Origin: a virus
Strand: one strand, 5' to 3'
DNA: 36,437 bases
Virus record (IMG/VR): IMGVR_UViG_3300044615_001192
Location: 1 to 36,437 of that record
The notes under the pieces were generated by a model that made no database searches, was not told the DNA's origin, and saw only the letters and a program-made list of their open reading frames with translations. The position numbers were made by a program, and so were the translations under genes. Positions 10,540 to 34,337 of the stretch are shown here, piece after piece. Within the stretch, counting starts at the first letter, position 1; each line of letters begins with the position of its first letter.

Positions 10540-12174
10540 GTGCAGCGACTCGATCACCCCACCAAGGACCCCAAGCTGCCCAGCTACGTGGGGCCGGCCC
10601 TGCGCCGGGTGATGGCGGACCTGGAGGTCACCCACGACTGCTGGAACCTGCTGCGCACGCCCGGTGCGGCCAAGGGCCAGGAAGATGCCCTGCTGCGCCG
10701 GTATCTCCCCAAGGAGCCCCGCGAGCCACCCGAGGCCTACCGGGTGCGGCTGGCCTACAGCCGCTACCCCAGCTTCTTTCCGGATGCCATTCGGTCGTTC
10801 AGCGGTGTGCTGAGCCGGTTCCAGCTGGCCAGCCCGCCCCCGACCCTGGAGGCCGCCGCCAGCAACATCGACCGGCAGGGCAACAGCCTGAAGGCCCTGC
10901 TGACCGCAGCAGACCAGGGCGTGATGCGTGACGGCGGCTGCTACCTGATGGTCGACATGCCGGCAGGGCGGCCCGGATCACTGGCCGAGGAGGTCGCCTC
11001 CGGCCGCCGGCCCTACCTGACCCTGGTCGATCGCGCTGATGTGCTGAGCTTCCGGGTCGCCATGGTCGGCACCGCCCAGGTCGCCACCCAGGTGGTGGTG
11101 CGCGAGTGGGTGGAAGTGCCGGACGACGACGGCGCCTATGGCACCACGATCGAGGCCCGGTACCGGGTGATCACCACCCAGGCTGGTGTCACCAGCTGGC
11201 AGGTGCTGAAGCTGACCAAGGACGGCAACGGCACCTACGGGGCGGCGGTGGACACCGATGAGCAGGGCCAGCCCCGTGAGGCCAGCTACGAGGCCGCTGG
11301 CGGCAGGCCGTTCCCCAGGCCACCGATCGTCTGGTATCCGAGCCGGATCGCGGAGGGCTTCGGGCAGGGGGCGGTGCCGCTGATCGGCCTGGCGCTCGAC
11401 ACCCTTGATCACTTCCGCACCCGGGCGGACCAGAAGGAGCTGATGCGCAAGCTGGCCATGCCGGTGCCCGTGCGGACTGGGATGCCGCCGCCGGCACCGG
11501 GCCAGCCACAGCCCGTGGTGACCCTGGGGGCCAACACGTTCCTGGATCTCCCGCAGGGCAGCAGCTTCGATTTCAAGGGCCCGCCCAGTGACAGCCTGGC
11601 GCCACGGGCGGCCGAGGTGGAGCACATCGAGGGGCTGATCCGCGAGCAGACCCTGGCGTTCATGTACGGCACTGGCGGCGGGGCCAAGACCGCCACCCAG
11701 GCCGACCTGGAGGGCGTGAGCAGCCAGGCCAATATCCGCACCATGGCTGAGGCCAAGGTCAACGCGGTTCAGCAGCTGCTCGAGCTGTGGACCCTGTTCA
11801 CCGGTGAGCCGCTGGAGCCTGATGCCGGGATCGTGATGGATGCCAACCTGCACGATCGGCCCCTGGGCCCGCAGGACACGGCGCAGCTGTCGGCGCTGGC
11901 CATGAATGAGCTGCTGAGCCAGCGCAGCCTGACCGAGATCCTGATTCGCGGTGGGGTGAACACGGCGGCCACGTCGCCAGAGCAGGAGCTGCAGCGGCTG
12001 GAGGCTGAGCGGCAGGCCCGTGAGGCCGCGATGGGCGACCTGGCACCAGACGACCCGAGCCTGATCGATGACGCCGAGCTGCCGGTGAGTGAGCTGCAGG
12101 CCACCCCTGACGGGGCGAACGGCACCGGCGGCACTGACGGGGGACAGATCGGACAGGGTGGGGCCGACGCATGA
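10540..12174 (+). CDS. Portal protein (DUF4055-like)
   Basis: The 544-residue protein fits the DUF4055 portal family. It shows the YLPKEPREPPEAYRVRL opening (about 50-66), a FPDAIRSFSGVLSRFQ segment, NIDRQGNSLKALL, and GCYLMVDMPAG (about 130-140), then the clip/stem and a variable Glu/Asp-rich C-terminus. Twelve copies form the DNA channel at the capsid vertex. The GTG start follows a start-associated element. It overlaps the MuF gene by four bases (ATGA), as expected for a head module. Confidence 0.8.
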   Translation: MQRLDHPTKDPKLPSYVGPALRRVMADLEVTHDCWNLLRTPGAAKGQEDALLRRYLPKEPREPPEAYRVRLAYSRYPSFFPDAIRSFSGVLSRFQLASPPPTLEAAASNIDRQGNSLKALLTAADQGVMRDGGCYLMVDMPAGRPGSLAEEVASGRRPYLTLVDRADVLSFRVAMVGTAQVATQVVVREWVEVPDDDGAYGTTIEARYRVITTQAGVTSWQVLKLTKDGNGTYGAAVDTDEQGQPREASYEAAGGRPFPRPPIVWYPSRIAEGFGQGAVPLIGLALDTLDHFRTRADQKELMRKLAMPVPVRTGMPPPAPGQPQPVVTLGANTFLDLPQGSSFDFKGPPSDSLAPRAAEVEHIEGLIREQTLAFMYGTGGGAKTATQADLEGVSSQANIRTMAEAKVNAVQQLLELWTLFTGEPLEPDAGIVMDANLHDRPLGPQDTAQLSALAMNELLSQRSLTEILIRGGVNTAATSPEQELQRLEAERQAREAAMGDLAPDDPSLIDDAELPVSELQATPDGANGTGGTDGGQIGQGGADA

Positions 12175-13250
12175 CCCGCAGCGGCCCATCCGTGGGCGCC
12201 GCATCCCTGCAGCTGGCGGAGGACTATGCCGCGCAGCTGGACGCCCTGGGGCGCCGGTCTGAGGCCGCCACCTACCGGGTGCTGGTGCGCAGCCTGAGGG
12301 GCATCCTGGGCGAGCTGCGCCGCGCCTATGGCCGCTACCTGGACGTGGAGCAGCCCGATGCGATCGACCCGGCCGGCAATGCCATCCAGCGCAGCGGGGC
12401 AGCGGTGGTGCGCGAGGCCTCGACCCGGTTGCTGACCGTGCTCAATGCCGCCGAGGGGTTCATGCCCGAGCGGGAGCTGGGCGAGTGGGAGGAGCAGTTC
12501 AGGACCGACCTGGAGGCTGCGCAGCGGCTGGGCGGCGACCTGGGTGTGCAGCTGGCGCAGCTAGTGGCCGATGCACCGAGCGCTGTGCAGGGCGGGTTCA
12601 ACGCCCCGGCGGTGGAGGCCGCCAGCCGCTCGGCATCGGCCTACATCCGTAACGTGAGCACGGACTTCCGCCAGCAGATCGTGCAGATCACCGGCGAGGC
12701 GGCCAGCCGGGGGTGGGGCCCCAGCCGGATGGAGCTCCAGGTCAGGCGGGCGCTGGCGGGGGAGGGGCAGACCGCAGGGCTGCGGCAGCGTGCGGCGCTG
12801 ATCGCCCGCTCCGAGCTGGCCAATGCCTATGTGCAGGGCCAGATCGACAACGCCCGCCGCAACCGGTTCGACTATGTGCGATGGATCGCGGTGCGCGACG
12901 AGCGGACCTGCCCGTTCTGCGTCTCCCGCCATGGGCAGATCTACCCGGTGTCAGCCGTGGTGATGCCGGCCCATCCACGCTGCCGGTGCGTGGCATCACC
13001 GGTGCCGCAGGAGGCGGTGGAGGGCGACCCCGAGGTCCGCAGGGCCCTGACGGACGAGGCCTACTGGGAGGACAGCCAGAAGCAGGCCTGGAGCGAATAC
13101 GCCGAGGCCAAGGGCAAGACCCTCGACGAGGTGCGGGGCGAGCTGGTGCGTGCCCAGCGGCAGCCCACGGCCAGCGAGCGGCGCCGCTACCCGGGAATCC
13201 CGAGCAGCCTGCCGCCGAGCCTGGCGGTGCGGTGGTACGGAGGAGAGTGA
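12171..13250 (+). CDS. MuF-type minor head protein
   Basis: The protein has 359 residues. The Mu F domain lies at about 165-276: FRQQIVQIT...RGWGPSRMELQVRRAL, AALIARSELANAYVQGQ, WIAVRDERTCPFCVSRHGQ (238-256) and MPAHPRCRCV (265-274). These include the paired CxxC and HPRCRC metal-like motif. MuF proteins sit with the portal in the procapsid and may be injected. No toxin domain is fused; the C-terminal 80 residues are charged and helical. Confidence 0.88.
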   Translation: MTRSGPSVGAASLQLAEDYAAQLDALGRRSEAATYRVLVRSLRGILGELRRAYGRYLDVEQPDAIDPAGNAIQRSGAAVVREASTRLLTVLNAAEGFMPERELGEWEEQFRTDLEAAQRLGGDLGVQLAQLVADAPSAVQGGFNAPAVEAASRSASAYIRNVSTDFRQQIVQITGEAASRGWGPSRMELQVRRALAGEGQTAGLRQRAALIARSELANAYVQGQIDNARRNRFDYVRWIAVRDERTCPFCVSRHGQIYPVSAVVMPAHPRCRCVASPVPQEAVEGDPEVRRALTDEAYWEDSQKQAWSEYAEAKGKTLDEVRGELVRAQRQPTASERRRYPGIPSSLPPSLAVRWYGGE

Positions 13251-18627: not shown

Positions 18628-19326
18628 ATGGCCAAGCCGCTGCCGTTCAAGGTCCAACCCAAGGCCGATACGGTCGAGATCGGGGATGAGGCCATCGGTG
18701 TGCTGGTGTTCCCTCGCTACGGCTACCTGCTGACCGGTGAGCGGAGCGCCATCGACGAGGGGGACTACCAGGGGGCGATGCAGGAGCACCTGGGCAGCCT
18801 GCAGGCCGCCCTGCGGGAGCAGGGCACAGCGGAGGACGAGGTGGACCAGACGGCGGTGCGGCTGCTGGCCCCCGGCATCGGCATCCCCGTGGTGCCGACC
18901 GAGGGCGAGCGGGTGCTGCGCTCACTGCTGATCCGCCAGATCACCGCAGCTGAGCGCGACCTGGCCGGGCGGTTCCGGCGGCAGGTCACCCGCACCGTGA
19001 CCGCCCTGATCCGGTTTCGACTGGAGGGCTGCGGCGACTGGGGTGACAGCGACAGCGAGGAGCTGGGCGAACCACTGCGGGGGGCGATCTTCGGGTTCGC
19101 GCAGCGCGAGGGCGGCACGGCGGACGACCGCGATCCGGCGGTGGTGCTGCAGGAGCTGGCTGACCGCCTGGGAAAGACGCCTGGCCCGAACCCGTCGACT
19201 GGGGAGGCCTCTACTGGCGATGCCGCAGCCTCTGGCCTGCTGCCCCCGAGTTCGGACCCGACCGCTTCGCCTGGCAGCCCGAGCACGTCGTCTACCAGGC
19301 CATCGAGGAAGGGGAGCGCCGACTGA
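18628..19326 (+). CDS. Tail assembly chaperone, short form (232 aa)
   Basis: The protein begins MAKPLPFKVQPKADTVEIGD and is helical from about 85 to 183. After residue 183 it changes abruptly to a Ser/Pro/Thr/Gly-rich tail of about 49 residues, which looks like an out-of-use frame. A G GGA AAG heptamer (19170-19176) sits exactly at this change. By analogy with lambda gpG, this would be the abundant product made without frameshifting, which helps tape-measure folding. Its place before the major tail protein gene is unusual. Identity is inferred from the frameshift and the tail context. Confidence 0.6.
   Translation: MAKPLPFKVQPKADTVEIGDEAIGVLVFPRYGYLLTGERSAIDEGDYQGAMQEHLGSLQAALREQGTAEDEVDQTAVRLLAPGIGIPVVPTEGERVLRSLLIRQITAAERDLAGRFRRQVTRTVTALIRFRLEGCGDWGDSDSEELGEPLRGAIFGFAQREGGTADDRDPAVVLQELADRLGKTPGPNPSTGEASTGDAAASGLLPPSSDPTASPGSPSTSSTRPSRKGSAD
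19170..19176 (+). other. Probable -1 ribosomal frameshift site (GGGAAAG)
   Basis: GGGAAAG is in the correct phase (G GGA AAG) in the 18628 frame and is the same heptamer used by lambda G/GT. The -1 frame has a TGA at 19161-19163 and is then open to 19838, so the frames overlap only from 19164 to 19326, with the heptamer at the upstream edge. Confidence 0.75.
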
Positions 19327-19838
19327 GGGAGCAGCTGCAATGGGCCGAGCTGCCGGTGGCGCGGCAGACCATGTGGGTGGCGGACCTGCACCGCCTGCTG
19401 CTGGCAAAGGTCACCGGCGCTGAGCGGCTGGAGCCCAGCCAGCTGGAGCTGCGCGACTTCCTGTGCTTCGGTGAGCCGGGCGAGCAGGACCACGGCCCAC
19501 CACCGGCTGCCGGTGCGGCGATGCTCGAGCTCAACCGCCTGGGCCTGCTGCCGGGCTTCACGCTGGTGTTCTGGCCCGCGCTGAGCGAAGCGGGCAAGGG
19601 GCAGCCGCCGCCGCAACTGCTGGCGCTGCTGGCCGATGACGCGGTGCTGCTGGCGCCACGGATGACCGGCGGGGGCTGGTCGGGCCTGCTGCTGGCGGAG
19701 GACACCGCAGCGGGGCAGGTGCGGGCGTTCAGCTCGGTGGACGGCGATCCGGCGGGTGAGCTGCTGGTGCCGCTGCCGTCGGATCCGGGGGCGGTGGTGT
19801 GGGCGGAGGAGGTGCTGCTGCTGCCGGTGATTCCCTGA
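19176..19838 (+). CDS. Frameshift extension of the tail assembly chaperone (GT-like)
   Basis: Read in the -1 frame after the heptamer, the bases encode DAWPEPVDWGGLYWR... and then FAWQPEHVVYQAIEEGERR and LPVARQTMWVADLHRLLLAK, a well-formed sequence of about 220 residues. An in-frame GTG at 19356 could be called as a separate gene (160 aa), but it lacks a Shine-Dalgarno, and credible coding begins well before it. The fusion with residues 1-183 of the short form would be about 403 residues. In lambda the equivalent extension recruits tail-tube subunits to the tape measure. Confidence 0.65.
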   Translation, partial: DAWPEPVDWGGLYWRCRSLWPAAPEFGPDRFAWQPEHVVYQAIEEGERRLREQLQWAELPVARQTMWVADLHRLLLAKVTGAERLEPSQLELRDFLCFGEPGEQDHGPPPAAGAAMLELNRLGLLPGFTLVFWPALSEAGKGQPPPQLLALLADDAVLLAPRMTGGGWSGLLLAEDTAAGQVRAFSSVDGDPAGELLVPLPSDPGAVVWAEEVLLLPVIP

Positions 19839-20001
19839 GCAGCCGGCGTGCGCGGTTCAGCGCGATCTCAGCCTCCAGCACCGAGCGGAAGTAGCCCAGC
19901 GACCGGCGGCGGCCACCGGACTGCAGGCGGGCCTGGTACGGCCTGCGGGGGCTCTGGGGGGCGTAGCTGACGCCACGGGGTAACCACTGGGGGCCGGCCA
20001 T
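19729..20001 (-). CDS. AP2-domain DNA-binding protein (90 aa), antisense
   Basis: Residues 9-52 fit the AP2 fold: RGVSYAPQ, RPYQARLQSGGRRRSLGYF and S-x-x-EAEIALNRA, with the expected basic three-strand sheet and helix. The last 35 residues are Pro/Ala-rich and antisense to the chaperone extension, overlapping it by about 110 bases. AP2 domains bind DNA and in phages often accompany HNH nucleases; none is seen here. It is a lone minus-strand insertion among tail genes, so probably a moron. Confidence 0.65.
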   Translation of the reverse strand: MAGPQWLPRGVSYAPQSPRRPYQARLQSGGRRRSLGYFRSVLEAEIALNRARRLLRESPAAAAPPPPTPPPPDPTAAAPAAHPPDRRPPS

Positions 20002-20076: not shown

Positions 20077-20916
20077 ATGGCACAGAACTGGAAACAGGCC
20101 TACGGCTACAAGTTCTGGATCAGCCCGATCCTCAAGGACTCGATCAACTTCGCCACCCTGCTGCCGACCGCAGGCCTGGGCACCGGCAAGTTCATCGACA
20201 ACAGCACCCCGCTGGCCAACAACCTGGCGGTGATCAAGGCCGGCACCGGCGCCACCCTGGGCCTGGGCGTGGGCACGCTGAAGGTGATCACCAACGCGGC
20301 GCTGGCCACCAACGAGGTCACCCTGACCTTCGCGGCGGCCCATGGGTTCACCGTGGCGCAGCGGATCGTGGTGGCCAACCTGCCGGCCCCGTTCACCAGC
20401 CTCAACGGCACCTACACCGTGAAGGCGGTGACCACCAGCTCGCCGTTCACGCTGACCTACGACAAGACCGGCAGCAACATCGCCTCGGCGGCGGTCGCTG
20501 CCGGCGGTGTGCTGCCGGCCCTGGTGCTTGACGGCACCGCCAGCCCGATCCGGCTGCTGGGCCTGAGCAACGCGGCGCCGGAGGAGGGCGAATCGGAGGA
20601 GACCGTCGACACCTACGACGACGAGCTCCAGGGCTTCGATGCCAGCCTGGCCACGAAGAAGACCTTCAGCTGGACCCTGGAGGGGGTGAGCGATCACAAC
20701 GACACCGCCTACAAGCTGCTGCGCCTGTGCTCGAAGGAGTCGGTGCGCGAGGGCCTGATGGTCAAATACGCGCGTGTGGGCCCCACCGGCGTGAACGAGG
20801 TGACCTATGGCTTCGGGCGGTTCACCGGCTTCAGCGAAACCCCGCCGGCTGCTGGTGTGGTGCGCTGGAGCAGCACGCTCAAGGCCTACGGCCCCTATGA
20901 GCTGGAGTTCGCCTGA
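20077..20916 (+). CDS. Major tail protein with inserted Ig-like module (279 aa)
   Basis: The C-terminal half reads as a tail-tube protein: ETVDTYDDELQGFDASLATKK, FSWTLEGVSDHNDTAYKLL, VTYGFGRFTGFSETPPA and a final KAYGPYELEF strand. Residues about 68-146 form an extra beta-rich module (HGFTVAQRIVV, LNGTYTVKAVTT, FTLTYDKTGSN) also found inside the major capsid protein. The tube domain polymerises around the tape measure, while the module probably decorates its surface. A weak element variant lies at 20032-20041, but 36 nt from this ATG. A strong terminator follows the gene. Confidence 0.75.
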   Translation: MAQNWKQAYGYKFWISPILKDSINFATLLPTAGLGTGKFIDNSTPLANNLAVIKAGTGATLGLGVGTLKVITNAALATNEVTLTFAAAHGFTVAQRIVVANLPAPFTSLNGTYTVKAVTTSSPFTLTYDKTGSNIASAAVAAGGVLPALVLDGTASPIRLLGLSNAAPEEGESEETVDTYDDELQGFDASLATKKTFSWTLEGVSDHNDTAYKLLRLCSKESVREGLMVKYARVGPTGVNEVTYGFGRFTGFSETPPAAGVVRWSSTLKAYGPYELEFA

Positions 20917-21269: not shown

Positions 21270-21710
21270 ATGGCACTCCCGGCGACCGCTGGCGCCATCT
21301 ACGACCTGCTGGTGTCCGACGCGGAGCTGCTGCGGTTGCTGGGTGTGTATCAGCTGCCGGATGGGCAGTCGCTGCCGGCGATTGCGGCCCTGAAGCGCAA
21401 TGAGCGGCTGCCGGAGGGCACGGCGATCGGTGGGGTTGAGGTGGTGATCACCACGCCTCGGCTGTCGCCGGAGTGGCTGCTCGATGGCGGTTACCGGTCC
21501 CAGCCGACGTTTCGGATCTACGTGAGCGAGTGGCCCGGTGCTGATCGTGACCAGCTCCAGGCGGTGGCCGAGCGGGTGATCGGCTGGCTGCCGGGGGCGA
21601 CGACGACGCAGATCGACGGCGACCCGCCAGGGGAGGGGCTGGGCCTGCTGGATCAGTTCGTGATCCGGTGGGTCAACCCTGAGGCGCACGTCAGCGGGGG
21701 TGCGGGCTGA
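21270..21710 (+). CDS. Probable tail terminator protein (146 aa)
   Basis: The protein has the alpha/beta layout of tail terminators: an N-terminal helix (AGAIYDLLVSDAELLRLLG), strands (GGVEVVITTPRLSP, QPTFRIYVSEW), a helix (RDQLQAVAERVIGWL) and a C-terminal strand (DQFVIRWVNPEAHV). It lies between the major tail protein and the tape measure. It would cap the tail tube at the correct length. No decisive motif; position and fold pattern only. Overlaps the tape measure start (TGATG). Confidence 0.5.
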   Translation: MALPATAGAIYDLLVSDAELLRLLGVYQLPDGQSLPAIAALKRNERLPEGTAIGGVEVVITTPRLSPEWLLDGGYRSQPTFRIYVSEWPGADRDQLQAVAERVIGWLPGATTTQIDGDPPGEGLGLLDQFVIRWVNPEAHVSGGAG

Positions 21711-24700
21711 TGGCGGATCGTGAGTTCAGGGTTGTTGGCACAGCGGACTTCCGGGCAATCCTCGAGGGGTTCAAGCAGGTGCAGGCCGGCGGAGTGCAGG
21801 CCGGCCGACAGGTTGAGGACTCGCTGAAGCGGGCGGGCGAGGCGGCACCCGGGGCTGGCGCCAAGGTCGGACAGCTGGGCGAGGCGCTCGGGAAGATTGG
21901 CGCAGCGGCAGGGGGAGCCGGCGAGCGACTGCGGGGGGCCACCGGGCAGTTCCTGAGGGTGGGGCAGGACGCGGCGCAGGTCAATTCCAAACTGGGTGCC
22001 ATGTCTGCGTCGCTGGGCATGGTCAGCCAGGGGCTGGCCGGGCTTGGCATCGGCGTGTCGGCATCAGCGGCCCTGGCCTACTCGTTCCGGCAGATGACGG
22101 CGGCCGACGATGCGGCGGCGGCGGTGCGGACGCTGGGGATCAACAGTGATGAGCTGTCCGCACGGCTGGCCGATGTGTCCAGGGAGCTGGGCAACAACTA
22201 CAGCCAGATCGAGCTGACGACCGCTGCCTATGACGTGGCGTCGTCTGGCTTTGCAACGGCTGCGCAGGCCAGTGACATCCTCAAGGCTGCAGCGTTCGGC
22301 GCGAAGGGCGGCTTCTCTGATCTGGGGACGGTCGCCAATGCGCTGACCTCCGTGATCAACGCCTACGGGCTGACCAGCGCAGATGCCGCCAAGATCGTGG
22401 ACGGGTTCATCCAGACCCAGAACGACGGCAAGATCGTGCTGGCCGAGTACGGCAGGGAGATCGGCAACGTGGCGGCCATCGCCGCCGCTGGTGGAATCAG
22501 CATCGATGAGCTGAACGCCGCGATCTCAGCAGCAACCGCAAACGGCGTGCCGGTCAACCAGACCTTCACCGGCCTGCGGCAGGCGATCAGCGCGGTGCTC
22601 AAGCCGACCGCAGAGGCGACCGCGCTGGCCAGCAAGCTGGGGATCCAGTTCAACGCTCAGGGGCTGAAAGCGAAGGGCCTCGGCGGGCTGCTGGAGGAGG
22701 TGGCGCAGAAGACCCGGGGCAATGTGCAGCAGAACTCGGTCCTGTTCAGCTCGGTTGAGGCCCTGGCGGCGGTTCAGCCGCTGTTGAATGACGGACTGGC
22801 GAAGTACAACGACTTCCTGGAGAACCAGGCCAGCGCATCAGGCGCCGCTGCCAAGGCATCGGATGAAGTCGGCAGGACCATCAGCGGCAGCCTGACCAGG
22901 ATCAAGAACGCAGCATCGGACACCACCGTTGCGCTGACGAAGCTGTTCTCGCCGGAGCTGGAGGCATCAGCCACGGTGATCGCCAAGGCGTTCGGACTAC
23001 TGGCCAACGCAGCCCAGCGCAACGGCGGGCTGCTCAAAGGCGCGATTGAGTCGGCAATCCCCGGCCTGTCGGGCGCAAGCGTGCTGCTGAAGTTCATCGC
23101 TGATCGCTTCAAGGAAAGCGGCAAGGAGGCGGGGAAGACCGCAACAGAAGCGGGGCGACTCGGCCAGGAGAGCGGCAAGGCGGCTGGCGGACTGACGCAG
23201 GCCGAGGTGGCGTCAAGGGCGCTGGCCGCGCAGATGCAGACCGCCACGGCGGAGGGCGTGCGGCTTCAGGACCAAGCCTCCCGCAGCGCGGTGGCACTCG
23301 ACACCGCAGCGCTTGCCGGCCAGCGGCTTCAGCTGTCGCTGCAGATCGGTGACAGCCTGATCAAGCTGGCCCAGGCCAGCCAGGGGCTGGAACAGAGCCG
23401 CTTCGACATCGCCAAGGCCCGCAACCAGTACGAGCTCCAGGCAGCGCAGCAGCGCGGGGCATCGGAGACCGAGATCGAGGCGATCAAGCGCAACGGGCAG
23501 CTGATCGAGGCCCAGGCGCTGCAGGCCCGTGCGCAGTCCCTGCTGTCAATCCAGGAGCTGGAGCGGCAGTCGCTGTCGCTGACGCAGGAGCGAGCGCGGA
23601 TTGATGCCGATCTGGCGGTGCAGGGCGCCCGGGTGAAGCAACTGGAGGCTGAGGCGGCGGTGCAGGAAGCGATCGGCAAGGGGGATGAGCGAGCGACGGC
23701 GCTGGCCCAGCAGAAGCTGGAGCTCGCGCAGCAGGTGGTGCAGCTGGAGATCCAGCGCCGCGAGACCCTGGCCCAGACCCAGCCGATCGAGCAGCAGATC
23801 GCCGCCGCCGGCGCCGAGACGGCCCGCAATGCCCTGCAGGCGCAGGCGGCGGCCATGGGCCTGCGGCTGGAGGCCAACGGCACGGTCGCGGCCATGCAGG
23901 GGGTGAACCAGAGCTTCCAGGTGCTGGCCACCAGCCAGGGGCTGACGGAGGGCGGTCAGCGGCGGTTGCGTGAGCTGGCTGCCGCGACCGGGCTGGAGGT
24001 GCGCCAGGCGGCTGATGGGACGATCCAGATCGGCCGATCGCTGGGCGCTGCGGGCACGCCAGCGGGGCAGCTGGTCGAGGCCCTCAAGAACGCGGCCGAT
24101 CCAGCGGGAGCGATCAGCGGCAGCTTCGTCAAGCTGGGCGAGAAAGCCCCGGCGGCGGTGCAGGGCAGCCGGGACTTCGCCGGCTACCTGTCGTCCGCTG
24201 CGGGCTACAGCAAGCAGGTGTCAGATCCCAGGATCGCCGGGGAGGTGCGCAATGCAGCCACCCAGGCCGGCAGTCTGGCCGACAAGATGCGCACCAGCGC
24301 CAGCTCCGCCCAGTCCTTCTATCAGTCGCTCCTGCAGGCCTCCGCCCTGCCCGGCTCCCGGTGGACCGGCGGCCCGGTGGAGGCCGGCACGTCGTACCGG
24401 ATCAACGAGCTGGGCCAGGAGTCGCTGCTGGGCCCCGGCGGGCGGCTCAGCCTGATCAATGCACCGGCGAACAGCCTGTGGCGGGCGCCCCGTCCGGGTG
24501 TGGTGCTGCCCGCTGGGGTGACCGCCCAGCTCAAGGAGCAGGGGGTCTTCGGCGGCGGCGCCGGGGCCAGCCTGCGGGGCGCGGGGGCGGCGGTGGCCGG
24601 CGGTGGTGCGGCCGAGGTGCTGGCGCAGCAGGCGGTGGAGATCGGCCGGTTGCGGCAGGCGATCAGCGAGCTGGCCCGGAAAACCTGGAACGTGGGCGTG

Positions 24701-24760
24701 AAGGTGCGATCCGATGGCAGCGCCGTGTCGTTCCTGAACCAGATGGGGAGGATGCGCTGA
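21710..24760 (+). CDS. Tape measure protein (1016 aa)
   Basis: It is the longest gene in the window. The N-terminal 100 residues are an Ala/Gly-rich helix, then a hydrophobic stretch (SLGMVSQGLAGLGIGVSASA). Residues about 120-380 match the TP901-type tape-measure domain (LADVSRELGNNYSQIELTTA, AYGLTSADAAKIVDGFIQTQ, VNQTFTGLRQAISAVLKPTA). Residues about 500-700 are long Gln/Glu/Ala coiled coil. A Gly/Ala-rich segment precedes the C-terminus. It sets tail length and is probably ejected with DNA. By the usual relation, about 1,000 residues suggest a tail near 150 nm (rough inference). Confidence 0.9.
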   Translation: MADREFRVVGTADFRAILEGFKQVQAGGVQAGRQVEDSLKRAGEAAPGAGAKVGQLGEALGKIGAAAGGAGERLRGATGQFLRVGQDAAQVNSKLGAMSASLGMVSQGLAGLGIGVSASAALAYSFRQMTAADDAAAAVRTLGINSDELSARLADVSRELGNNYSQIELTTAAYDVASSGFATAAQASDILKAAAFGAKGGFSDLGTVANALTSVINAYGLTSADAAKIVDGFIQTQNDGKIVLAEYGREIGNVAAIAAAGGISIDELNAAISAATANGVPVNQTFTGLRQAISAVLKPTAEATALASKLGIQFNAQGLKAKGLGGLLEEVAQKTRGNVQQNSVLFSSVEALAAVQPLLNDGLAKYNDFLENQASASGAAAKASDEVGRTISGSLTRIKNAASDTTVALTKLFSPELEASATVIAKAFGLLANAAQRNGGLLKGAIESAIPGLSGASVLLKFIADRFKESGKEAGKTATEAGRLGQESGKAAGGLTQAEVASRALAAQMQTATAEGVRLQDQASRSAVALDTAALAGQRLQLSLQIGDSLIKLAQASQGLEQSRFDIAKARNQYELQAAQQRGASETEIEAIKRNGQLIEAQALQARAQSLLSIQELERQSLSLTQERARIDADLAVQGARVKQLEAEAAVQEAIGKGDERATALAQQKLELAQQVVQLEIQRRETLAQTQPIEQQIAAAGAETARNALQAQAAAMGLRLEANGTVAAMQGVNQSFQVLATSQGLTEGGQRRLRELAAATGLEVRQAADGTIQIGRSLGAAGTPAGQLVEALKNAADPAGAISGSFVKLGEKAPAAVQGSRDFAGYLSSAAGYSKQVSDPRIAGEVRNAATQAGSLADKMRTSASSAQSFYQSLLQASALPGSRWTGGPVEAGTSYRINELGQESLLGPGGRLSLINAPANSLWRAPRPGVVLPAGVTAQLKEQGVFGGGAGASLRGAGAAVAGGGAAEVLAQQAVEIGRLRQAISELARKTWNVGVKVRSDGSAVSFLNQMGRMR

Positions 24761-32996: not shown

Positions 32997-33024
32997 TCAG
33001 CGGCGGGCTGGTTGGTGATCATCA

Positions 33025-33049
33025 GGGGCTGCGGATGCGGCCCCTTTCT
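33025..33049 (+). terminator. Rho-independent terminator after the scaffold gene
   Basis: GGGGCTGC GGAT GCGGCCCC followed by TTTCT: an eight-pair stem with one T-G wobble and a short T-run. Confidence 0.75.
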
Positions 33050-33074
33050 CGTGCGCAGGCGGCGCAACACGGGG

Positions 33075-33084
33075 CCGGAAAGCT
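33075..33084 (+). promoter_or_regulatory. Start-associated element, copy 14, upstream of the capsid gene
   Basis: CCGGAAAGCT. It lies after a terminator and 81 nt before the capsid ATG, but 19 nt before ATG 33103 of a 23-codon leader ORF. Confidence 0.5.
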
Positions 33085-33102
33085 ACAGCGCCAGGCGGTG
33101 CG

Positions 33103-33174
33103 ATGCCCCGGGCAAACCGGCGCGAGGCCGTCTTCCCAACCCTTCCCCCTCTGGAGACCCTGACATGGGTATGA
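33103..33174 (+). CDS. Possible leader peptide before the capsid gene (23 aa)
   Basis: ATG 33103 opens a frame MPRANRREAVFPTLPPLETL... ending at a TGA that overlaps the start of the capsid gene (33165). The start is 19 nt after a start-associated element, close to the usual spacing. A short ORF whose stop lies in the next start region could couple or regulate capsid translation. It is too short to judge by coding content. Confidence 0.3.
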   Translation: MPRANRREAVFPTLPPLETLTWV

Positions 33175-34337
33175 CCCTGCTGGAGGCGGCCAAATACGTT
33201 CAGGACCCCCTGACCCTGGCCACCATCCGAACCATCGCCGAAGGCCCGATCATGGGCGTTCTGCCGTTTGAGAACACCCCTGGCGCCGGCCTGTTTTACA
33301 ACCAGGAAGGCATCCTGCCCAACGTCGGCTTCCGTGGCATCAATGAAGCCCACGGCAAGAGCTACGGCGTGCTGAACCCGATGAGCGAGGCCCTGCGCCC
33401 GTTCGGCGGTGACATCGACGTGGACAAGTTCATCGTCGAGACCCGTGGCGAAGGTGCCCGCACCAGCCAGACCCTGCAGCAGGTCCGCAGCGCCCGCAAG
33501 GCGTTCGAGGATCTGTTCGTCAACGGCAACAGCGGCACCGATCCCCGCCAGATGGATGGCCTGCGGGCCCGGGTGACCAGCGCCACCAGCCAGTACTTCA
33601 ACAACGGCAACGGCGCCCTGTCCCTGTCCTTCCTGGACCAGGTGATCGGCGACGTGGAAGCCGATGGCGCCCAGAAGTACCTGGTGATGCCGAAGCGCCT
33701 GGCCCAGCGGTTCATCGCTGCCAGCCGCACCACCACCGTGACCGGTTTCGTGCCGCACCAGCGGGATGAGATGGGCCGGATGGTGGCGCAGTACGGGGAG
33801 TGCATCATTCTGGAGACCGACGTGAACGGTCAGAACCAGAAGATCCAGCCGTTCACCGAGGGCTCGGAGGTCGTCGCCACCGTGAGCAACGTGGCCCTGA
33901 CCAGCGACGTGGCCACGCTGACCATCAGCTCGGGTCACGGGATCGTGGTGGGCAACACCATCACGGTGGCTGGCGTGACCAACAACAGCAACCTGTTCAA
34001 CGGCAGCTACACGGTGACCGCCGTGACTGCCACCTCGGTGAGCTACGCCAAGACCAATGCCAACGTGACCTCTGCCGCTGCCACCGGCACCGGCCGGGTG
34101 AGCGTGGTCACTGGTGCCACCTGCTCGATCTACTGCGTCGCCTTCGGTGACCAGCTGACCACGGGCATCCAGGGCTCCATCGGCGGCCAGTTCGGCCCCG
34201 AGGTGCGTGACCTTGGCGAGGTCCACGACGCGCCGGTCTTCCGCACCCGGATGGACTGGAACGTGGGCATGGCCGTGCTGAACGGCAAGTCCGTGGCCCG
34301 GTACGCCGGCATCACCGACGCGGCCATCGTGGCCTGA
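33165..34337 (+). CDS. Major capsid protein with inserted Ig-like module (390 aa)
   Basis: The protein begins MGMTLLEAAKYVQDPLTLAT and follows the HK97-fold capsid pattern: an N-terminal arm, TFLVNGNS-type E-loop/spine region (RKAFEDLFVNGNSGTD, 111-126), KYLVMPKRLAQRFIA, and a C-terminal EVHDAPVFRTRMDWNVG...ARYAGITDA. Residues about 234-318 are an extra beta module (HGIVVGNTITV, FNGSYTVTAVTATSVSY) that also occurs in the major tail protein. ATG 33165 has GGAG about eight bases upstream, one of the few clear Shine-Dalgarno sites here, fitting high expression. Confidence 0.85.
   Translation: MGMTLLEAAKYVQDPLTLATIRTIAEGPIMGVLPFENTPGAGLFYNQEGILPNVGFRGINEAHGKSYGVLNPMSEALRPFGGDIDVDKFIVETRGEGARTSQTLQQVRSARKAFEDLFVNGNSGTDPRQMDGLRARVTSATSQYFNNGNGALSLSFLDQVIGDVEADGAQKYLVMPKRLAQRFIAASRTTTVTGFVPHQRDEMGRMVAQYGECIILETDVNGQNQKIQPFTEGSEVVATVSNVALTSDVATLTISSGHGIVVGNTITVAGVTNNSNLFNGSYTVTAVTATSVSYAKTNANVTSAAATGTGRVSVVTGATCSIYCVAFGDQLTTGIQGSIGGQFGPEVRDLGEVHDAPVFRTRMDWNVGMAVLNGKSVARYAGITDAAIVA

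Follow-up and report, generated by a model that had tools for sequence, protein, structure and literature searches.

Two forms of a putative tail-assembly chaperone very probably arise by ribosome slippage in a virus of cyanobacteria

Analysis of a 36,437-base IMG/VR viral record (69% GC; the whole stretch is called the window here) indicates that some ribosomes of its cyanobacterial host very probably slip back by one base, so that two forms of a protein aiding tail construction arise. It is highly likely that one gene encodes two tail-assembly chaperones, which would be produced via a -1 slip at the heptamer G GGA AAG. The frameshift is supported as far as sequence comparison permits. The features of the candidate gene are the following.

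18628..19326, plus strand: zero-frame ORF with a G-like product of 232 amino acids (translation; ATG at 18628, stop at 19324-19326)
19161..19163, plus strand: TGA closing the -1 frame just 5' of the slip site (sequence)
19170..19176, plus strand: slippery heptamer G GGA AAG, predicted site of -1 ribosomal frameshifting (sequence; in-phase heptamer in 35/36 clusters of relatives)
19176..19838, plus strand: -1 frame extension, T-like, 220 amino acids past the shift (translation, family alignment A4, pLDDT of 91.9, phrog_34388, sub-threshold PF06223, dN/dS in relatives)
19356..19358, plus strand: GTG, first possible start in the -1 frame (3' of a conserved WRCRxLWPxxPEF block)

The candidate slip site and the two reading frames

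The heptamer GGGAAAG at 19170-19176 is located near the 3' end of the 18628-19326 ORF and is read there as G GGA AAG, which is the phase given in the original prediction. No second copy of it is present on this strand of the window (36.4 kb). The -1 frame is shut by the TGA at 19161-19163 and runs open from 19164 to the TGA ending at 19838, also as described beforehand. The fusion comprises 404 amino acids counting the stop (183 + 220 residues plus stop), and the predicted shifted product reads ...ELADRLGK up to the site and DAWPEPVDWGGLYWRCRSLWPAAPEFGPDRFAWQPEHVVYQAIEEGERR... after it. The zero-frame tail past the site consists of 49 residues and is indeed Ser/Pro-rich.

When codon positions are considered separately, the base composition fits the zero frame up to the site and the -1 frame past it. 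GC contents at the three codon positions of the zero frame before the site were 0.78/0.46/0.90, and just past the site 0.76/0.54/0.84 was found for the -1 frame versus 0.54/0.84/0.74 for the zero frame. Of the Gly codons counted in genes of the window, only 5.7% are GGA, yet this codon is present at the slip site; codon bias is therefore not the reason for its presence. The first ATG, GTG or TTG of the -1 frame in the window is the GTG at 19356, and since it lies 3' of the conserved WRCRxLWPxxPEF block, it is probably a false start, as had been proposed.

Conservation of the heptamer and selection on the -1 frame

A profile search yielded 80 viral contigs and one contig of a cyanobacterial MAG. 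Loci with complete frames were grouped by the identity of their second halves (90%), resulting in 36 clusters; a locus search by first-half alignment was not usable, because this half shows too little conservation. In 35/36 clusters, the frame overlap contains one of the canonical heptamers GGGAAAG, AAAAAAG and GGGAAAA in phase, versus 3.6 clusters expected from codon shuffling within each ORF, and the same three heptamers were found at 0/6424 in-phase positions 5' of the site. The family thus exchanges GGGAAAG, AAAAAAG and GGGAAAA at the site, and in all relatives the partner frame is -1. Three near copies (97-100%) and two relatives at 34-35% (L005 and L006) have GGGAAAG in phase, and heptamer and overlap, whose conservation the original prediction had proposed to check, are both kept in relatives down to ∼15-35% first-half identity. 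As a control, the site of lambda itself was located, GGGAAAG in the same phase as in the window.

Two observations had been named beforehand as contrary evidence, relatives with a single uninterrupted frame and loss of the heptamer with both frames kept. No relative with one uninterrupted frame was found among the contigs and the cultured isolates. The lone cluster outside the canonical set, L073/L075 (slip at 4974 in L073 and at 4283 in L075), has G GAA AAG and retains the A-AAG half of the heptamer.

Cultured phages could be identified by tblastn, with both halves in PSS2 and the second half in S-CBS2, S-CRES1, S-CRES2, and S-CRES3. It had been expected that annotation would split the pair into two genes, and in PSS2, S-CBS2, S-CRES1, and S-CRES3 the halves are annotated as separate genes, the second always in the -1 frame relative to the first. 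The in-phase heptamer at the overlap is GGGAAAG in PSS2 and S-CRES3, and AAAAAAG in S-CBS2 and S-CRES1.

In three long-overlap groups, dN/dS just past the slip was 0.038, 0.077, and 0.114 for the -1 frame and 1.38, 4.9, and 1.34 for the zero frame, respectively (from 3, 1, and 74 pairs, which are not independent). Two more groups, including that of the window, held too few differences to discriminate. These values indicate that after the heptamer the -1 frame is under selection at the protein level and the zero frame is not. The zero-frame residues past the site in the window are thus probably a side effect of coding in the -1 frame. In 24/36 clusters, the open -1 frame has no ATG, GTG or TTG ahead of a conserved PGDPEF block, so that a conserved stretch of ∼35 residues at the beginning of the -1 half precedes any such codon; in most of the other 12 clusters, the sole start is a TTG shortly 5' of this block. 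Together, the recurrence of the heptamer and the selection on the -1 frame in relatives bear out the programmed -1 frameshift of the original prediction. Site, phase, conservation, -1 relation and selection are all read from the sequences.

Stimulatory RNA structures 3' of the site are frequent at -1 frameshift sites, but are not required. No unusual downstream RNA structure was observed at the site of the window. In the near copy L002, the downstream RNA had less structure than its synonymous variants (z +2.5), and the same was observed for the 11 clusters outside the marine-type set (Stouffer +4.8). Marine-type sites had more structure than their synonymous variants (25 clusters, Stouffer -7.1, uncorrected for relatedness). 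At these sites, the zero frame mostly ends within a few bases of the heptamer and a stem often begins ∼6-8 bases past it. Striking single folds were obtained for L086, L078, L061, and S-CRES1. The long imperfect stems at L086:4963-5039, L078:737-813, and L061:4999-5075 pair with the FPGD-coding sequence. RNAalifold gave no consensus stem shared within the marine-type branch and covariation was weak; the marine-type stem is therefore taken as a lead only. A 3' stem-loop may possibly act as a frameshift stimulator restricted to this branch.

The tail module and the products of the two frames

Downstream of the pair, the following genes were identified in the window.

19729..20001, minus strand: antisense ORF, AP2-like by eye (no Pfam match), which overlaps the 3' end of the T-like frame
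20077..20916, plus strand: major tail protein gene (phrog_38654, 3.5e-41; phrog_1407, 1.8e-7)
21270..21710, plus strand: tail completion/terminator-like gene between the major tail protein and tape measure genes (weak PF11367)
21710..24760, plus strand: tape measure protein gene (phrog_991, 2.7e-48; PF10145, 2.7e-25)

The major tail protein (20077-20916) is 45-46% identical over ∼130 residues to S-CBS2 gp019 and S-CRES1 gp76, and the terminator-like gene (21270-21710) is homologous to S-CRES1 gp75, S-CBS2 gp018, and PSS2 CSPG_00063. The clusters share an order of neck-like gene, pair, major tail protein and then, where the contig extends that far, tape measure. In the branch of the window, the pair is followed by the antisense AP2-like ORF (where detected), the major tail protein, the terminator-like gene and the tape measure, and homologs of the antisense ORF occupy the same place in relatives. 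In the marine-type branch, the order is neck, pair, antisense HNH, terminator-like gene, major tail protein and tape measure. The antisense HNH endonuclease gene was present in this spot in every cluster of marine-type relatives examined and also in PSS2, which is unusually constant for a mobile nuclease.

A position between the major tail protein and the tape measure is the usual order for chaperone pairs and is not essential to the mechanism. The pair studied here does not occupy it. The original prediction regarded its placement before the major tail protein gene as unusual; this is correct, and the placement is conserved in 35/35 clusters in which the major tail protein is recognizable, which argues that the usual order is not needed. 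Such chaperone genes have been described immediately before the tape measure gene or a few genes upstream of it (PMC3556154, PMC12859696).

Beyond the tail genes and close to the end of the window, an ORF at 33012-34337 (plus strand) matched "major head protein" (phrog_212, 8.3e-57); it is distant from the portal (10540-12174) and the Mu-F-like gene (12171-13250). phrog_9998 matches the major tail protein at residues 61-140 and this capsid-like protein at residues 289-365, over ∼80 residues each, and the stretch shared by the 20077-20916 and 33012-34337 proteins is possibly an inserted domain.

In a family alignment of 32 members (A3), the conserved domain of the first half comprises residues 1-183 and ends at the slip site. 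This half was predicted by AlphaFold2 with a mean pLDDT of 91.5 as an N-terminal beta hairpin followed by helices. The second half (pLDDT 91.9) has a helical N-terminal half and a C-terminal beta domain in the predicted structure. phrog_34388 matches the -1 half in 32/32 members (best 1.1e-96), and in most members the match starts near residue 44 of this half, at profile position 2-4. Since the profile begins at about residue 44, the gene models underlying phrog_34388 seem to be truncated and to begin at a false start.

Several weak matches link the pair to tail chaperones. PF06223 (Phage_tail_T, the lambda gpT family) matched 8/32 members at E up to 1, all below the cut-off; the best match had 17.6 bits (E 0.0054) against a gathering cut-off of 25.9 bits, and the matches listed share one region. 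In the same region, phrog_5297 ("tail protein") matched 5/32 members (best E 1.6e-4); this family gave no match in the cyanophage and lambda records. Structure neighbors of the first half, at weak E-values, included a "pre-tape measure frameshift protein G" and several proteins annotated as tail assembly chaperones, and S-CRES gp73 and gp80 are already annotated as "tail assembly protein". Comparison of lambda G and T with the pair yielded no significant match with single sequences or profiles, and a profile comparison with relatives of lambda T gave a probability of 7%. Searches of the first half against PHROG and Pfam gave nothing consistent, the second half had no match in NCBIfam, and solved structures gave weak unrelated matches by sequence or fold, with no chaperone structure among the matches listed. 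The weak chaperone links all point in one direction and the direct lambda comparison is null; thus, a lambda-like way of working is supported and homology to G/T is not. It is well supported by the heptamer, the position and the weak gpT resemblance that the pair works like the lambda G/GT tail-assembly chaperones. The chaperone identity in the original prediction is therefore well backed by position and weak sequence resemblance, and stops short of proof.

The occurrence and frequency of slippage in vivo, as well as the role of the products as chaperones, are inferred from these data as follows. The majority of ribosomes would translate the zero frame from the ATG at 18628 to the stop at 19326, giving the G-like protein of 232 amino acids. 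A minority would slip one base back on G GGA AAG, with the P-site pairing moving from GGA to GGG and the A-site pairing from AAG to AAA, and would then read on in the -1 frame as far as 19838, which would yield a GT-like fusion of 404 amino acids. In the lambda model, the short form sits on the tape measure and the fusion recruits the major tail protein (PMC5009743). By analogy, the short form would coat the tape measure protein, the fusion would bring in the major tail protein, and neither product would be expected in the virion.

Frameshifting could also be real and the pair a virion component of neck or tail that gains a C-terminal domain by the shift, like Ig-like extensions. The predicted beta domain ending the -1 half has no counterpart in the shorter aligned proteins of the lambda gpT family, homology to lambda G/T is not significant, and domains added by frameshifting (Ig-like extensions) are known on phage virion proteins (PMC5009743). 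This reading is nevertheless improbable, given that the pair stands in the tail module before the major tail protein in 35/35 clusters and that matches to the gpT family and to chaperones, although weak, recur; moreover, in the annotation of S-CBS2 the flanking genes are labeled structural and the two halves are not. A somewhat less improbable, still doubtful reading is that of a lineage not descended from lambda G/T, with an independently acquired -1 frameshift. Its extra C-terminal beta domain would then serve tail building in a way of its own, and its slip sites would be of two types, one next to a stop and followed by an RNA stem in the marine-type branch, the other a GGGAAAG with little structure and a long overlap in the branch of the window.

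That the halves are two separate genes, the -1 frame being started at GTG 19356 or a non-standard start, perhaps coupled, with the heptamer incidental, would agree with the public records, which give both halves their own starts, and with the separate expression of two chaperone ORFs in some phages (PMC7302621). The presence of the heptamer in 35/36 clusters, with 3.6 expected, and the conserved residues ahead of any start, or of any start other than TTG, make it very improbable. Fusion by slippage of RNA polymerase at a run of A, for which the AAAAAAG in nearly half of the clusters could speak, is less probable still, as the window and ∼20 other clusters have only three (GGGAAAG) or four (GGGAAAA) A, short for polymerase slippage, and the X XXY YYZ phase is fixed. 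A one-base slip in a single record would look identical to the arrangement in the window; however, no relative with a continuous frame was found, and a sequencing error or a decayed, broken gene was rejected, since independent contigs and cultured isolates show the same two frames, with the -1 frame under selection.

Comparison with known frameshifted tail chaperones

A frameshifted chaperone is apparently unreported in cyanophages: no report of -1 frameshifting in cyanophages was found in the literature searched, which consisted mostly of non-subscription papers, so that an earlier report is possible, and frameshifting is unmentioned in a paper on freshwater cyanosiphoviruses (PMC6157547). 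The results would extend the G/GT type of frameshift to siphoviruses of cyanobacteria that form a broad family, in which the pair stands before the major tail protein, a conserved departure from the usual order. A function is suggested for genes listed as hypothetical, and gene models would be corrected in the cultured reference phages PSS2, S-CBS2, and S-CRES1/3 and in a PHROG family seemingly based on truncated starts. Because S-CBS2 and PSS2 are cultured, the fusion is directly testable there.

The closest counterparts include PSS2 CSPG_00060/61, S-CBS2 gp015/016, S-CRES1 gp72/73, and S-CRES3 gp79/80, which are homologs of the pair in the window. The pairs of PSS2, S-CBS2, and S-CRES1/3 have GGGAAAG or AAAAAAG in phase, follow a neck-like gene and have an antisense HNH neighbor. 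The zero-frame stop lies 3-6 bases from the site in the S-CRES phages and S-CBS2, whereas it is 150 bases on in the window. The pre-tape-measure chaperones of phiCbK and Colossus resemble the pair as a siphophage -1 frameshift chaperone pair, but their heptamers AAAAAAC and GGGAAAC end in C, the pair is ahead of the tape measure and the hosts belong to another group (PMC3556154). Lambda G/GT shifts at GGGAAAG, the same heptamer as in the window. The lambda order is V-G-T-H, with the pair between the major tail protein and the tape measure, whereas the pair in the window stands before the major tail protein. Its halves are longer, with 183 amino acids to the site and 220 past it compared to 140 for G and 144 for T as annotated, and compared to lambda it has an extra C-terminal beta domain and a long frame overlap, with no significant sequence similarity.
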